Made by a program: the position numbers and the translations under genes
Notes under the pieces: model-generated
The model's database searches: none
What the model saw: the letters and a program-made list of their open reading frames with translations, nothing else
Told to the model about the DNA's origin: nothing
Source: Thermoanaerobaculia bacterium
GTDB taxonomy: Bacteria > Acidobacteriota > Thermoanaerobaculia > Thermoanaerobaculales > Sulfomarinibacteraceae
Length of the DNA stretch: 36,595 nucleotides
Direction of reading: 5' to 3'
Assembly (NCBI GenBank): GCA_027067575.1
Contig: JAMOVQ010000109.1
Location: 1-36,595 of the forward strand
Part shown: in pieces, positions 10,380 to 16,237 of the stretch
How the letters are laid out: each line of letters begins with the position of its first letter
How positions within the stretch are numbered: position 1 is the first letter of the stretch

Positions 10380-10640
10380 ATGTTCGGTTCACTCGGGGTT
10401 CCCGAGCTGATGATGATCTTCGTGGTCGCGCTGCTGCTCTTCGGCCCGAAGAACCTGCCGAAGATCGGGAGGACGCTCGGGCGGGCCATGGCGGAGTTCC
10501 GCCGGGCCTCGAACGACTTCAAGCGGACCATCGAGGAGGAAGTCGCGGCCTCGGAGATCCGTGACGTCAAGCGGGAGATCGACGAGGCGGCCCGCGGCCG
10601 GTCGCCGGAGGGCGGCGACGGGGACGGTGCCGGTGGCTGA
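10380..10640 (+). CDS. tatA: Sec-independent translocase subunit TatA/TatB family
   Basis: 86 residues from ATG 10380, chosen because GGGAGG is 5 nt upstream. It has one short N-terminal membrane helix (VPELMMIFVVALLLFGP), then the hinge FGPKNLPKIGRTLGRAMAEF and an amphipathic helix, followed by a charged tail. This is the TatA/B layout that forms the pore for folded twin-arginine substrates. Only one A/B-type gene is present beside tatC, so it may serve as a bifunctional TatA. The tatC start codon overlaps its end. Confidence 0.92.
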   Translation: MFGSLGVPELMMIFVVALLLFGPKNLPKIGRTLGRAMAEFRRASNDFKRTIEEEVAASEIRDVKREIDEAARGRSPEGGDGDGAGG

Positions 10641-11415
10641 TCCGGCACCCGAGCTCGAGAGCGGTCCGGCGGAAGGGGGCGAGCTCCCGAAGATGACGCT
10701 CGTCGAGCATCTCGAGGAGCTGCGCCGCCGGCTCTTCGTCTCCCTGATCGCCGTGTTCGTCGGTTTCCTCGTCGCCTGGGCGTGGTCCCAGGAGATCTTC
10801 CACTGGCTGGAGGTGCCGATCCAGCAGTTCCTGGAGCCCGGCGACAAGCTGGCGTTCACGGCGCTGGCGGATCCGTTCATGCTCTACATCAAGGTGGCGC
10901 TGCTCGCGGGGATCTTCGCGGCCTCGCCCGTGGTGCTGCTCCAGCTGTGGTTGTTCATCCGGCCCGGCCTCTACCCCCACGAACGGCGGATGGTTCTTCC
11001 GTTCCTGTTCTTCACCACCGTGTTCTTCCTGGGCGGCGGCTATTTCGGGTACCGGGTGGCGTTCCCCATGGTGGTGCGGTTCCTGCTCGGGGTGGGCAAG
11101 GACTTCAAGCAGGTGGTGACGATCCAGTCGTACTTCGCCATGATGTCGAAGATCCTCCTCGGGCTGGGGCTCGTCTTCGAGCTGCCGATCCTCGTGTTCT
11201 TCCTGGCCCGGCTCGGGCTGGTGACGGCGCGGATGATGGTCCGCGGCCTGCGGTGGGCGATCCTGGCGATTTTCATCATCGCGGCGGTGATCACGCCGAC
11301 CCCGGACGTGGCCACCCAGACGGTGTTCGCGGTGCCCATGATCCTGCTGTACCTCCTCGGGATCCTCGTGGCGGCCGTGTTCGGCCGCAAGCGGCGGCCG
11401 GCGGACGGGGGCTGA
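10633..11415 (+). CDS. tatC: Sec-independent translocase subunit TatC
   Basis: About 260 residues. The start is GTG 10633 (or GTG 10627), overlapping the tatA stop. The signature MTLVEHLEELRRRLF precedes the first helix. Six hydrophobic helices follow, with the family loop IRPGLYPHERRM after helix 2 and FELPILVFFLARLGLVT later. TatC binds twin-arginine signal peptides in the inner membrane and works with TatA. Its TGA overlaps the ATG of the next gene (ATGA-type junction), so the TtcA-like and radical SAM genes belong to the same transcript. Confidence 0.95.
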   Translation: MADPAPELESGPAEGGELPKMTLVEHLEELRRRLFVSLIAVFVGFLVAWAWSQEIFHWLEVPIQQFLEPGDKLAFTALADPFMLYIKVALLAGIFAASPVVLLQLWLFIRPGLYPHERRMVLPFLFFTTVFFLGGGYFGYRVAFPMVVRFLLGVGKDFKQVVTIQSYFAMMSKILLGLGLVFELPILVFFLARLGLVTARMMVRGLRWAILAIFIIAAVITPTPDVATQTVFAVPMILLYLLGILVAAVFGRKRRPADGG

Positions 11416-12188
11416 TGGACCGCAGGCGGTGCGGCAAGGCGGCGGGCCGGCTGTTCGCGAAGGTCCGGCGCGCGTGCCTGCGGTGGGATCTGCTGCCGCC
11501 GGGGGAGCCGGTGGCCATCGGGATCTCGGGCGGACCGGACAGCCTGGCGCTGGTGGCGATGCTGGCCCGGCGGAACCGGATGCTCGAGGTCAAGAGCCGC
11601 CTCGTGGGGCTCCACGTGGCGCTCCGTGGGGACGGGGAACCGTGGAGCCTCCCGGAGGCGATTCGGGACTGGTGCCGCGAGCAGGGCGTCGAGGTCGAGA
11701 CCGTGGTGCCGCGGGTCGATCCCGGCGAGGCGTTTCCGATGACCTGTTTCCGGTGCGCGGGGATCCGGCGGCGCACGCTGCTGGAGGCCGCCGACGCACG
11801 GGGTTGCTCCCGTCTCGCGCTGGGGCACCACGCCGACGACGTGGTGGAGACGTGGCTGATGTCGCTGTTCTACACGGGGACGGGCGACGTGCTCCCGCCT
11901 GTGCGGAGCTACTTCGGTGGCGTGGTCACGGTGGTCAGGCCGATGTACGAGGCCCCGGCGCGGGAGATCCGGCGGGTCGCGTCGCTCTGCGGCTACCCCG
12001 TGGACCCCGTGCGGTGCCCGGTGGAGGGCTCGGCCAGGCGGAACAGGGTCCGGGAGGTTCTGGCGGCCCTCGGCCGCGACCAGCGCCGGGTCCGCCGGGT
12101 GCTGTTCCGGACGATCGTCCGGTCGTACGGAGCGCCGGCGGACGGGGTGGTAGAATCCGCGCCGGGAGGGGACGGATGGCGAGGTTGA
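11415..12188 (+). CDS. TtcA-like PP-loop ATPase (tRNA thiolation family)
   Basis: 257 residues. The ATP-binding PP-loop SGGPDS is at 38-43. A CxxC (C111-F-R-C114) and a further C201 occupy the places of the three Fe-S-ligating Cys of TtcA, and LGHHADDVVET is the usual family motif. TtcA adds sulfur to cytidine 32 of tRNA using cysteine-desulfurase sulfur and ATP. The layout fits this, but related Cys-bearing PP-loop proteins modify other targets, so the substrate is inferred. It overlaps tatC by 1 nt and the radical SAM gene by 13 nt. A partner role with that protein is possible. Confidence 0.8.
   Translation: MDRRRCGKAAGRLFAKVRRACLRWDLLPPGEPVAIGISGGPDSLALVAMLARRNRMLEVKSRLVGLHVALRGDGEPWSLPEAIRDWCREQGVEVETVVPRVDPGEAFPMTCFRCAGIRRRTLLEAADARGCSRLALGHHADDVVETWLMSLFYTGTGDVLPPVRSYFGGVVTVVRPMYEAPAREIRRVASLCGYPVDPVRCPVEGSARRNRVREVLAALGRDQRRVRRVLFRTIVRSYGAPADGVVESAPGGDGWRG
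12151..12156 (+). promoter_or_regulatory. Possible internal -10 element before the radical SAM gene
   Basis: TAGAAT lies inside the end of the TtcA-like gene, 19 nt before ATG 12176. It resembles the other -10 hexamers in the window but overlaps coding sequence, so it may be chance. Confidence 0.2.
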
Positions 12189-13501
12189 ACCCGGGCGAGC
12201 TGGAGATCGATCTGTTCTGCAAGGGGTTGCGGATCGACCCCTCGTGCCGGCTGGACCGGGACGCACGGCTGTTTTCGCGGACGAGGGCCGGTCTTGGGTC
12301 GGGACTGGAACTGATCATTCCCGGGGACCTCAAGGATATCTGGATGAACGCGCCGGTCGAGGAAGACTTCTGCGCCCTCTCGCCGTACTTCCTCCGGTGG
12401 GAGGAAGGGCGGGGCTACCACGTGGTGGACACGCGTTCAGACGAGGCGTACGACGTGACGATCCCGCCCCAGCCTGCGTGGTACGAGCGGACGACCTCGT
12501 CAGGGGTGCCCATGTCGCGGGTGGGTGTGCTCCAGGGGACGTACCTCGGCATCTACGTCTCCGAGGCATGCATGTTCTGGACTCCCCAGGAGAACGCGAA
12601 CTGCAAGTTCTGCACGTCCGGCGTCAACGTCGGCGTCAACGAGGTGACACGCAAGCGCGTCCGGGACGTGGTGGAGGTCGCCCGCGCGGCGAAGGAGGAG
12701 TCCGGCGTAACCTTCGTCCACTTCAACGCCGGGTACCAGTGGGAGGACCTGCCGGAGCACACCCGTGCCCACGGCCTCAACCGGGCGGCGCCGTTCGTCA
12801 AGGCGATCCGCGAGGAGGTCGGGCTGTTCACTGGAGTGCAGGTCGCCCCGGTGTTGCCGCGGGACCACTGGAAGTACGACTGGCTCGTCGAGCTCGGCGC
12901 GGACCATTTCTCGTTCTGCTACGAGTTCCACAACCCGGAGTACTTCGAGCGGTTCTGCCCGGGCAAGAAGCGCCACCTCGGTCAGGAGGCGTTCTTCGCC
13001 GCGCTGGAGTACACGTCGAAGCTGCTCGGAAAGGGCAAGGTCTCGGGCGAGATCATCGCGGGTCTCGAGCCGATCGAGGACACGTTCCGCGCGATCGACT
13101 ACATCACGTCGGTCGGCGCGTTCCCCACGGTCTGTATCTTCCGGCCGCTGATCGGTGCGGACCTGGAGCACTATCCGTCGCCCCCGTACGAGGACATGCG
13201 CCGCGTGTTCGAGCACGTGTGGCACGCCATGGTTCGGAATGGGATCCCCATGGAGATCGTGCCCAACATCGAGGTCAGCCTGGTGGTGCAGCCTGGTGAC
13301 GCGGCGTACCTCGTCGAGCGGGACCTGCGGTGGCGGGCGTACCGGGCGAAGAATGCCGTCCTGCGGTTGTTGGCAAGACCGCTCGTGCGCTGGAAGCTGA
13401 AACCCCATCCGGTCAGGGCCTCGGCGACGGACCACCCCAACCTCCCGCCGCGCCTGCCGGTGGCGGAAGGGGCCGAGCGCCGGGACGGGGAGGCGGCATG
13501 A
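12176..13501 (+). CDS. Radical SAM protein with atypical CX10CX2C cluster motif
   Basis: 441 residues from ATG 12176, with GGGAGGGG about 5-9 nt upstream. The probable [4Fe-4S]/SAM site is C132-x10-C143-x2-C146 (within YVSEACMFWTPQENANCKFC) instead of CX3CX2C. Downstream features suggest a TIM-barrel fold: FVHFNAGYQWEDL, VQVAPVLPRDHW, HFSFCYEFHNPEYFERF, EIIAGLEPIEDTFRAIDYI. Three early Cys (15, 24, 66) precede the motif. I do not recognise the subfamily or substrate. The gene overlaps the TtcA-like gene by 13 nt and the 140-residue unknown by 4 nt (ATGA), so the three are probably functionally linked. Confidence 0.75.
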   Translation: MARLNPGELEIDLFCKGLRIDPSCRLDRDARLFSRTRAGLGSGLELIIPGDLKDIWMNAPVEEDFCALSPYFLRWEEGRGYHVVDTRSDEAYDVTIPPQPAWYERTTSSGVPMSRVGVLQGTYLGIYVSEACMFWTPQENANCKFCTSGVNVGVNEVTRKRVRDVVEVARAAKEESGVTFVHFNAGYQWEDLPEHTRAHGLNRAAPFVKAIREEVGLFTGVQVAPVLPRDHWKYDWLVELGADHFSFCYEFHNPEYFERFCPGKKRHLGQEAFFAALEYTSKLLGKGKVSGEIIAGLEPIEDTFRAIDYITSVGAFPTVCIFRPLIGADLEHYPSPPYEDMRRVFEHVWHAMVRNGIPMEIVPNIEVSLVVQPGDAAYLVERDLRWRAYRAKNAVLRLLARPLVRWKLKPHPVRASATDHPNLPPRLPVAEGAERRDGEAA

Positions 13502-13920
13502 TCCGCCAGGTCGACCAGGAGCGCGCACTGGAGAGCGCTGCGGGGATTCCGGGCGGCGCGGCGGTGCTCGGGCGCTTGAAGGAGCGGAGCGAGCCGTTCG
13601 TCCTCGTCCCGGAGGGCGCGGGGCTGGAGTGGGGTGTGGCCAACGAGGTCAAGGGCGCCCCGAACCGTGCGCGCCTCAAGCTGTTCGTGCCGGAGGGGCG
13701 GGACGACATCGTGGTGCTGCTGGCGTACAAGACCTCGCAGGTCGAGTGGTCCCGCGACCGGTACGCCTACGGTGTCTGGGAGATTCCGGTGACGGACGGC
13801 GAGACGGCCATCGACCCGGCCGTTCTCGACACCTGGATCGACTTTCAGGTCAGCGGGTTCCACCCCGAGCGCCGTCCGGACACCCTCGTCCGCCAGATCT
13901 CCTACGACATCCCGGCCTGA
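13498..13920 (+). CDS. 140-residue protein of unknown function, coupled to the radical SAM gene
   Basis: 140 residues from ATG 13498, whose codon overlaps the radical SAM stop (ATGA). No signal peptide, membrane helix or Cys is visible. It contains NEVKGAPNRARLKLFVPEGRDDIVVLLAY followed by a Trp/Tyr-rich stretch (VEWSRDRYAYGVWEIPV), consistent with a small beta-rich cytoplasmic domain. I do not recognise a family. The tight coupling suggests an accessory subunit or substrate of the radical SAM enzyme, an inference from position only. A strong stem-loop follows 30 nt after the stop. Confidence 0.65.
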   Translation: MIRQVDQERALESAAGIPGGAAVLGRLKERSEPFVLVPEGAGLEWGVANEVKGAPNRARLKLFVPEGRDDIVVLLAYKTSQVEWSRDRYAYGVWEIPVTDGETAIDPAVLDTWIDFQVSGFHPERRPDTLVRQISYDIPA

Positions 13921-13950
13921 GCAGACAGAGCGTCTTCCGGACAGGGAGAG

Positions 13951-13977
13951 TCCCGCCCCGGTGCGCCCGGGGCGGGA
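13951..13977. terminator. Bidirectional terminator between convergent genes
   Basis: An 11-bp perfect GC-rich stem (T13951-CCCGCCCCGG with CCGGGGCGGG-A13977) has a 5-nt loop (TGCGC). It lies between the ends of the 140-residue gene and the aminotransferase-fold gene. There is no T-run on either side. Confidence 0.6.
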
Positions 13978-13999
13978 GCGAGCAGAGCAGGTGCCGGGG

Positions 14000-15142
14000 T
14001 CAGAGTCCGATTTTCTCGAGGATCCGATCCAGGGCCTCGAGCTCGCCGCGGGTGGTGTAGAAGTGGGGCGAGAACCGGACGAACCCTTCGCGGACGCTAC
14101 AGACGATGTGCCGTTCCGCCAGCCTTCTGACGGCCTCCGTGGGCTCCACTCGCGGGTGGCGGGCGGCCACGATGCCGGCGACGGGATGGCCCGGTCCTGG
14201 GGAGAACAGCTCCCACCCGTGGGCGATCAGGATTCGCATCAGCTGCCGTATGAGCATCTCGACGCGGGTCTGCACCACGTCCGTCCCGACCTGGGTGAGG
14301 AGGTCGAGCGCCGCGGCGAGCCCGGCGACGGCGGCTCCGTCTGCCGTACCCGGCTCGAACCGTCGGCCGTCGAGGTGAAAAGTGAGCTCCTGGAGGAAGA
14401 AGTCGTCCGGGCCGAGCCCGGTGTTCCGCCACCCGGCGAGGACCGGCCGGAGCTGCGAGCGGAACGCCGGGCGGGTGACGAGGAGCGCGATCCCCTCCGG
14501 TCCGAGGAGCCACGTGTGCGCGCCGGCGACCAGCGCGTCCACGCCAAGCGCCCGCACGTCCATCGGGAGGATGCCGAGACCCTGGATGGCGTCCACCACG
14601 AGGAACGCGCCGTTCTCGCGGCAGAGGGCCCCGAGCTGGGCCAGGGGCGCAACCCATCCGGTGTGGAACGAGACCCACGAGACGCTGACGATACGCGTGG
14701 CGGGCCCCACGGCCTTCGCGACATCCTCGAGGCGAACCCGGCCTCCGGGCTGCGGGAACCGGACGACCCGGACCCCGCGCCGTTCCAGAGCGAGCCACGG
14801 GGCGGCGTTGGCGGCGAACTCCTCGTCGCCCACGACGACCTCGTCGCCCGGCTGCCATTCGATCCCCTGGGCGATCAGGCTGAGGCCGATGCTCGTGGAG
14901 CCGACGATCGCCACGTCTTCCGGCGCCGCCGCCGTCAGCTCGGCGCCGAGGTGACGGCACGTCATCGCGTGATGGGCCCAGTCCTCCTCGGCGAGTCGCC
15001 CTGCGTTCTCCCGCTGGCCGATCCGTTCCCGCATCGCCTGGGCCACCGAGCGGGGTAGTGGTGAGAGCGCGGCGTGGTCGAGGTACAGACACCGGTCGCG
15101 CACGGGGAACTCGGGAAGCCAGCGGGTCAGGTCCAGCTGCAT
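14000..15142 (-). CDS. Class V aminotransferase / cysteine-desulfurase-fold protein lacking the PLP lysine
   Basis: 380 residues from ATG 15142. The fold-type I signatures are well preserved: YLDHAALSPLP, GSTSIGLSLI, WVSFHTGWVAPLAQL, VVDAIQGLG (Asp184 for the pyridine nitrogen) and VDALVAGAHTWLLGPEGIALL. In the last, families normally read HKW or YKW, with the lysine forming the PLP Schiff base; here codon 14513-14515 is ACG, giving Thr210. Only two lysines exist in the whole protein (143, 377), neither nearby. So either the enzyme is not a conventional PLP enzyme or the base is a sequence error (AAG to ACG is one change). Relatives include SufS/CsdA-like desulfurases and isopenicillin-N-epimerase-like proteins. 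It is convergent with the TtcA/radical SAM operon. Confidence 0.8.
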   Translation of the reverse strand: MQLDLTRWLPEFPVRDRCLYLDHAALSPLPRSVAQAMRERIGQRENAGRLAEEDWAHHAMTCRHLGAELTAAAPEDVAIVGSTSIGLSLIAQGIEWQPGDEVVVGDEEFAANAAPWLALERRGVRVVRFPQPGGRVRLEDVAKAVGPATRIVSVSWVSFHTGWVAPLAQLGALCRENGAFLVVDAIQGLGILPMDVRALGVDALVAGAHTWLLGPEGIALLVTRPAFRSQLRPVLAGWRNTGLGPDDFFLQELTFHLDGRRFEPGTADGAAVAGLAAALDLLTQVGTDVVQTRVEMLIRQLMRILIAHGWELFSPGPGHPVAGIVAARHPRVEPTEAVRRLAERHIVCSVREGFVRFSPHFYTTRGELEALDRILEKIGL

Positions 15143-15148
15143 GGGCGG

Positions 15149-15154
15149 ATCATA
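15149..15154 (-). promoter_or_regulatory. Candidate -10 element, leaderless spacing, of the aminotransferase-fold gene
   Basis: TATGAT on the minus strand is exactly 6 nt before ATG 15142. No ribosome binding site and no TTGACA-like -35 are seen. Confidence 0.45.
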
Positions 15155-15215
15155 GCGTAGCCGTCACCTTGGCGAGGGTGAGGGCGGGCACGGACCGGTG
15201 GCTCGGGCGCTGCCG

Positions 15216-15221
15216 TACAAT
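15216..15221 (+). promoter_or_regulatory. Candidate -10 element of the nitronate monooxygenase gene
   Basis: TACAAT, 32 nt before ATG 15254. The leader between them contains a long GGGGAGGGGAGGGGG purine run as a ribosome binding site. Confidence 0.4.
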
Positions 15222-15253
15222 GGCTTCCCGCGCGCGGGGAGGGGAGGGGGCGC

Positions 15254-16237
15254 ATGGCACGGAGGATCCGTACGGAACTGACCGAGCGGCTCGGGGTCGA
15301 TCACCCCATCGTCCAGGGCGGGATGATGTGGGTGTCGAGGCCAGCACTCGTTGCCGCCGTTGCCGAGGCGGGCGCGTTCGGGTTCCTGACCGCCTTGACG
15401 TTTGGCAACCCGGAGGGACTGGCCGAGGCGATCGACGAGACACGGCGGCTGACGGATAAGCCGTTCGGGGTCAACCTGACCTTCCTGCCCACACTGGTCC
15501 CCGTGGACTACGGTCCCTTCATCGACGTCATCGTGGAGAAGGGGATCCCCGCGGTGGAGACCGCCGGCCGGAACCCGGAGCCGTACATCGACCGGATCAA
15601 GGCCGGCGGTGCCATCGTCATCCACAAGTGCACGTCGATCCGCCACGCGAGGAAGGCCGTTGCCATCGGGTGCGACATGATCTCCATCGACGGGTTCGAG
15701 TGCGCGGGCCACCCCGGCGAGGACGACGTCACGTCGCTGATCCTGATCCCCCGGGCCGTCGACGAGCTCGACGTCCCCGTCATCGCCTCGGGCGGGTTCG
15801 CCGACGGCAGGGGTCTGGCGGCCGCTCTCGCCATGGGCGCCGTGGGCGTCAACATGGGGTCACGGTTCCTGGTCACGGAGGAGGCGCCCGTCCACGAGAA
15901 CGTCAAACGGCGGCTCGTCGAGGCCTCCGAGACCGACACGCTGCTCGTCATGCGGACGCTTCGCAACACCGAGCGCGTGCTGGCCAACGAGTGGGCCCGG
16001 AAGATCGTGGCCATGGAACGGGAAGGTGCGGGGCTCGAGGAGCTGGCACCGCTGCTCTCGGGGAAGAACGGGCTCAGGGCGATCACGGAGGGAGAGGTGG
16101 ACGCCGGCCTCATCGCCGCAGGGCAGGCGATCGGCCTGATCCACGACATCCCCCGGGTTGGTGAGCTCGTGGAGCGTGTCGTCGGGGAGGCGGTGGAGAT
16201 CATCGGTTCTCGTCTCCCGGAGCTCCTGACCTCCTGA
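15254..16237 (+). CDS. Nitronate monooxygenase (2-nitropropane dioxygenase family)
   Basis: 327 residues. The FMN-binding TIM-barrel family signatures are present: HPIVQGGMMWVSRPALVAAV at the N-terminus, AGAFGFLTA, PFGVNLTF, GFECAGHPGEDD with the conserved His, PVIASGGFADGRGLAAALAMGA, and GVNMGSRFLVTEEAPVH for phosphate binding. The family oxidises alkyl nitronates, detoxifying propionate-3-nitronate; some members are enoyl-reductase-like (FabK), so the substrate is not certain. A strong purine-rich ribosome binding site precedes the ATG. It is convergent with the response regulator, 55 nt away. Confidence 0.88.
   Translation: MARRIRTELTERLGVDHPIVQGGMMWVSRPALVAAVAEAGAFGFLTALTFGNPEGLAEAIDETRRLTDKPFGVNLTFLPTLVPVDYGPFIDVIVEKGIPAVETAGRNPEPYIDRIKAGGAIVIHKCTSIRHARKAVAIGCDMISIDGFECAGHPGEDDVTSLILIPRAVDELDVPVIASGGFADGRGLAAALAMGAVGVNMGSRFLVTEEAPVHENVKRRLVEASETDTLLVMRTLRNTERVLANEWARKIVAMEREGAGLEELAPLLSGKNGLRAITEGEVDAGLIAAGQAIGLIHDIPRVGELVERVVGEAVEIIGSRLPELLTS

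Follow-up and report, generated by a model that had tools for sequence, protein, structure and literature searches.

A class V aminotransferase-fold protein encoded in the window (the whole stretch of 36,595 nucleotides analysed here) carries Thr at the position of the lysine that forms the Schiff base with PLP, and the same replacement is found at the orthologous gene in other members of the order, where the simplest reading of our data is that it arose about three times independently. The gene (14000..15142, minus strand) is an open reading frame of 380 amino acids, and the replaced residue is codon 210 (ACG; 14513..14515, minus strand). This codon lies within VAGAHTWLLGP and is Lys in 28/28 Lys orthologue rows of the order; the Schiff-base lysine of a functional PLP enzyme is absent. 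Pfam Aminotran_5 matches residues 20-368 (E 3.6e-50, 171 bits against a cut-off of 21.5), and the AlphaFold2 model, built on an alignment of 35 homologues, has a pLDDT of 94.3. Comparison by VIA-align gives Z of 43-46 against SufS, C-DES and kynureninase chains (top PDB match Z 46.0), the nearest solved folds being SufS-type desulfurases and C-DES. The first-pass annotation had read this gene as a class V fold with Thr (ACG) for the PLP lysine, and the codon itself, the Pfam match and the alignment all bear it out; the protein does, as was also claimed, contain only two other lysines (K143 and K377).

Most of what surrounds the missing lysine is kept, and our alignments agree with the earlier statement that the remaining signatures, Asp184 included, persist. 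Asp184 (14591..14593, minus strand), which pairs with the PLP pyridine nitrogen, is invariant in alignment A1 and in 5/5 Thr proteins, as is Arg356 (14075..14077, minus strand) of the substrate-carboxylate motif VRFSPHFYTT; Gln187 (O3') and His209, immediately before the lysine position, are likewise present in all five. When aligned with SufS, position 210, Asp184, Gln187 and His209 fall in the columns of the PLP-lysine, pyridine Asp, Gln and His respectively, Phe109 occupies the column of the stacking His, and the Asp207 of Lys-bearing relatives coincides with a Ser three residues before the lysine. The functional roles attached to these positions are those of the SufS literature. The SufS persulfide-cysteine loop, which precedes the C-terminal Arg, is a gap in the profile alignment of the window family. 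No compensating lysine was found close to the site, and the lysines of the Thr proteins share no nearby position.

Our sample of the order comprised 37 genomes, 35 of which have a homologue at E 1e-40; the residue was readable in 32 (the copies in G012, G028 and G029 are fragments), with Lys in 27/32 and Thr in 5/32. The Thr genomes are that of the window (G000), one from another genus of the same family f1 (G006), and G021, G023 and G027, which are all the genomes of genus g12 in family f2. Identity to the window protein is 66% for G006 and 33-35% for the g12 proteins, and the nearest other homologue inside the G000 or G006 genome reaches only 33-34%. All five Thr reading frames are intact and without stops. 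The pattern H-[ABN codon]-W-L-L-G-P matches just these five of 148 class genomes, once each, and distant Lys-family rows have Lys in 33/33. The G027 protein is identical to that of a public record, L066 (Thermoanaerobaculum sp. SKYB76), which in turn equals the L083 protein.

These observations bear directly on whether the replacement exists at all. The first-pass annotation had allowed for an isolated change, either a recent mutation or a sequencing one, to be expected if homologues all had Lys; the homologue alignment instead places Thr in 5/32 genomes of the order, spanning three genera, and that option is refuted. For codon 210 to have been misread or misassembled would require little, ACG being one base away from AAG, but such an error would have to have struck five independent assemblies, one of which (g12) is matched by a public record, and it does not account for the alteration of Asp207; we regard it as wildly improbable. 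Because Thr recurs in G006 and three g12 genomes, a single-assembly error is excluded, and the Lys-to-Thr replacement is real. In a separate search for other non-Lys variants, permissive patterns matched 17/396 phylum and 40/147 class genomes; the 33 loci examined (L106-L138) gave no tblastn match to the query and are therefore chance matches.

The replacement is accompanied by changes nearby. Residue 207 (codon 14522..14524, minus strand; Gly in the window), three before the lysine position, is Asp in 28/28 Lys rows of the order but G, A, P, P and V in the Thr rows, and residue 219 (14486..14488, minus strand; Ala in the window) is Gly in 28/28 Lys rows but A, A, C, T and A in the Thr rows, while residue 221 is Met in 26/28 Lys rows and Leu in 5/5 Thr rows. 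Among distant Lys relatives Asp207 is present in 29/33, whereas residue 219 is Gly in 18 and Ala in 15; the change at 219 is less telling, since distant relatives that retain Lys often carry Ala. Over 122 near-invariant positions, the window protein differs at 8, G006 at 5 and the g12 proteins at 47-53, against 0-8 (mean 2.1) for 27 Lys rows left out in turn. Apart from 210, G000 and G006 have three changed positions in common (hypergeometric p 5e-4 if independent). Both retain Thr83, Phe109, Asp184, Gln187, His209, Arg351 and Arg356. The g12 proteins have retained Asp184, Gln187, His209 and Arg356 and lost Thr83, Phe109, Asn112, Gly190, Gly265 and Arg351; the structure predicted for g12 has lower confidence (pLDDT 83.8, with residues 223-237 below 50).

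How often did the change occur? We generated gene trees from 52 rows and, with loop columns dropped, from 36 rows. Within f1 the window protein takes the basal position, and G006 is sister to the Lys gene of G004 (L041; support 97-98/90-94), a pairing that survives removal of the loop columns. The g12 proteins group with f2 in the 52-row tree and stand on a long branch at the root, as drawn, of the 36-row tree. AU tests of constrained topologies gave p-AU 0.29 (52 rows) and 0.084 (36 rows, without loop) for G000 and G006 as one clade, and 0.071 (52 rows) for all five Thr rows as one clade; the gene tree by itself does not reject fewer than three origins. A species tree from gyrA and rpoB (25 genomes, three of them without rpoB; 2005 columns) has the same branching order, joins G006 and G004 with support 99/97, and rejects a grouping of G000 with G006 (p-AU 0.0011), so that Thr requires three changes on it. 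In passing, the reading frame of gyrA in G030 (L178) is intact but for a single in-frame TAG, reflecting either an error or read-through.

Gene order points the same way. The G006 Thr gene is flanked by HrcA, GTPase, LysM-SLT and FGE-sulfatase genes, like the Lys gene of G008 (L033), and the g12 Thr genes are divergent to an Asn-synthase gene, like the Lys genes of L043 and L044 (Asn synthase 50-51% identity; tblastn). We note that in five f2 loci the homologue, whether Lys or Thr, has an Asn-synthase-like amidotransferase gene divergent to it (L043 3070-5001, L044 3006-5001, L081 3103-5001, and matching places in L082 and L083), and a functional link between the two is possible. Taken together, the two kinds of tree and the gene order suggest, under vertical descent, three independent Lys-to-Thr changes, although two origins plus a local transfer could also produce the distribution. 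One such alternative is a single Thr origin for G000 and G006, with the loop spread by transfer or gene conversion. The two proteins do have AHTWLLGPEGIALL in common, they agree at 75% of residues 201-240, where four Lys relatives reach 48-62%, and the gene-tree AU test leaves the one-clade topology standing. However, identical synonymous codons in windows 181-220 and 201-240 amount to 60-67% against 48-67% in three comparisons of the window protein with Lys relatives, so there is no excess and we reject gene conversion of the loop; moreover, G006 still groups with G004, its sister in the species tree, when the loop columns are left out, and its gene occupies the chromosomal position that the Lys gene has in G008. 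We therefore consider a single origin for these two rather unlikely.

Do the Thr genes remain under selection? With dS near saturation all dN/dS values are rough, but the g12 pair G021-G023 gives 0.13 (dN 0.178, dS 1.36) against 0.02-0.11 for four neighbouring genes, G021-G027 gives 0.22 against 0.16 for Asn synthase, G006 (Thr) versus G008 (Lys) gives 0.18 against 0.20, 0.26 and 0.44 for three neighbours, and Lys-Lys pairs lie at about 0.065-0.12. The g12 genes are thus faster than the Lys genes yet constrained by purifying selection, and g12 combines fixation of Thr (3/3 genomes) with continued constraint (rough dN/dS 0.13-0.22), as a pseudoenzyme should. In f1, branch lengths for the gene and for gyrA+rpoB are 0.41/0.13 in G000, 0.23/0.06 in G006 and 0.34/0.096 in the Lys sister G004; these relative lengths are alike, so the two f1 Thr genes have not sped up.

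A class V protein without this lysine has no internal aldimine and no lysine proton transfer. Loss of Lys210 would accordingly remove both the PLP internal aldimine and the lysine acid/base, and with them ordinary turnover. We favour, with confidence only somewhat better than even, the view that the Thr protein is a pseudoenzyme of the class V (SufS/C-DES-like) PLP fold, kept for a non-classical role. The pocket that remains could bind PLP or PMP non-covalently, or a preformed PLP-amino-acid aldimine, much as an engineered Lys-to-Ala mutant of C-DES does, and the bound adduct might then serve in binding, sensing or a subunit role. Since the pocket is otherwise retained in the window protein and in G006, binding of PLP or a PLP-amino-acid adduct by a pseudoenzyme is the most likely activity for the window protein, though the conservation in these two may reflect little time, because the loss could be recent on their terminal branches. 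In g12 the change would be older, and loss of phosphate-site and stacking residues may have left a scaffold or a different binding role. Against the pseudoenzyme interpretation, the substitute is Thr every time, which purely passive loss would not predict, and no partner or regulatory gene for the Thr protein was identified. The gene context of distant Lys relatives indicated no function.

The main rival to a pseudoenzyme is a lysine-free PLP/PMP enzyme that binds its cofactor without a Schiff base and uses His209, Thr210 or another residue as acid/base in the manner of ColD/E1, which supply a precedent (Lys to His with PMP; PMC8987622). In favour of such an enzyme, the pocket of G000 and G006 is almost intact, and by a crude, post hoc calculation (from AAG, transitions weighted 2) the chance of an identical residue three times is 0.037 and of Thr three times 0.0014. 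Yet Thr is a poor acid/base, Asp207 disappears along with the lysine, neither a reductase partner nor an amino donor is known, and g12 has the same Thr with stacking and phosphate-site residues gone, so that we judge lysine-free catalysis possible but improbable. Similarly doubtful is the more specific proposal that the G000 and G006 proteins are active lysine-free PLP/PMP proteins, Lys-to-Thr with the changes at 207 and 219 having repeatedly given new chemistry or a receptor for amino-acid/PLP aldimines; if true, evolution would have a path out of Schiff-base catalysis that can be taken repeatedly. Next after ColD-like catalysis comes plain loss of function, in which the enzyme was no longer needed and the Thr copies are relics in the course of being lost. 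Losses on single terminal branches in G000 and G006 could indeed be recent, and divergence in g12 is fast (G021-G023 path about 0.37 versus 0.042 in gyrA+rpoB); against this, no stop has appeared in any of the five reading frames, the g12 dN/dS after the loss stays close to that of neighbouring genes, and the changes run parallel within one loop. Relics are in our view an unlikely explanation.

The surroundings of the window gene had suggested to the first-pass annotation a sulfur donor for a nearby TtcA-like gene. This proposal finds no support: no neighbours are shared between the window gene and 21 other compared loci (from crude gene calls), the cysteine loop is missing, and the top NCBIfam model, SufS TIGR01979, scores 123.3 bits against a cut-off of 475.1. 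The cluster in question (10561-13920, plus strand) is tight, comprising TatC, a TtcA-like PP-loop ATPase (98.6 bits to TtcA against a cut-off of 272), a 'variant_rSAM' radical SAM protein and a 140-aa protein without family, the last three reading frames overlapping or abutting. Between the convergent genes, at 13952-13980, a G+C-rich inverted repeat without a T tract is visible by eye; a terminator and promoter scan of 13850-15350 found nothing.

Lysine-less PLP-fold proteins are known yet few, and here the same swap seemingly arose about three times in one bacterial order and in one orthologous gene. With Lys sisters, lightly changed proteins (G000, G006) and long-remodelled ones (g12) side by side, the transition from enzyme to pseudoenzyme becomes directly testable. 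Automatic labels such as 'cysteine desulfurase' or 'aminotransferase' are probably wrong for the Thr genes.

Among known systems, the SufS and CsdA cysteine desulfurases are the closest relatives in sequence and fold, and their PLP-site Asp, Gln and His align with those of the window protein, which differs in lacking the PLP lysine, in having Phe109 for the stacking His and in the gap at the SufS cysteine loop. C-DES (L-cyst(e)ine C-S lyase, PDB 1elq; K223A in 1n31 and 1n2t) shares the fold of the window protein over 364-369 residues (rmsd 1.9) and, like it, has no persulfide cysteine (for C-DES, PMC8300815). Its engineered K223A form, a class V protein without the lysine, carries PLP joined to Gly or cystine (1n2t and 1n31, by their entry titles); the cystine complex, 1n31, matches the window model at Z 45.6 and rmsd 1.9 over 369 residues (VIA-align). 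Judging from these titles, a class V protein can retain PLP joined to an amino compound even when the lysine is gone. C-DES is, however, only 25% identical and has the lysine in its wild type, whereas the loss in the window protein is natural, and to Thr.

Natural replacement of the catalytic lysine in an aminotransferase fold is described for the sugar 3-dehydratases ColD and E1 (PMC8987622), but these are homologues of sugar aminotransferases with His as replacement and a known activity, where the window protein has Thr. SPTLC1 and the antizyme inhibitors are PLP-enzyme homologues turned non-enzymic regulators or subunits, and the B6 database drops sequences without the lysine, rare known exceptions aside (both PMC2748086). 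SPTLC1 and the antizyme inhibitors differ from our case in being eukaryotic, in belonging to other folds or subfamilies and in having a known active partner, which the window protein does not. Lysine-less PLP-fold homologues are already recognised, and a literature search, with subscription journals mostly outside its coverage, found no report of this Lys-to-Thr case.
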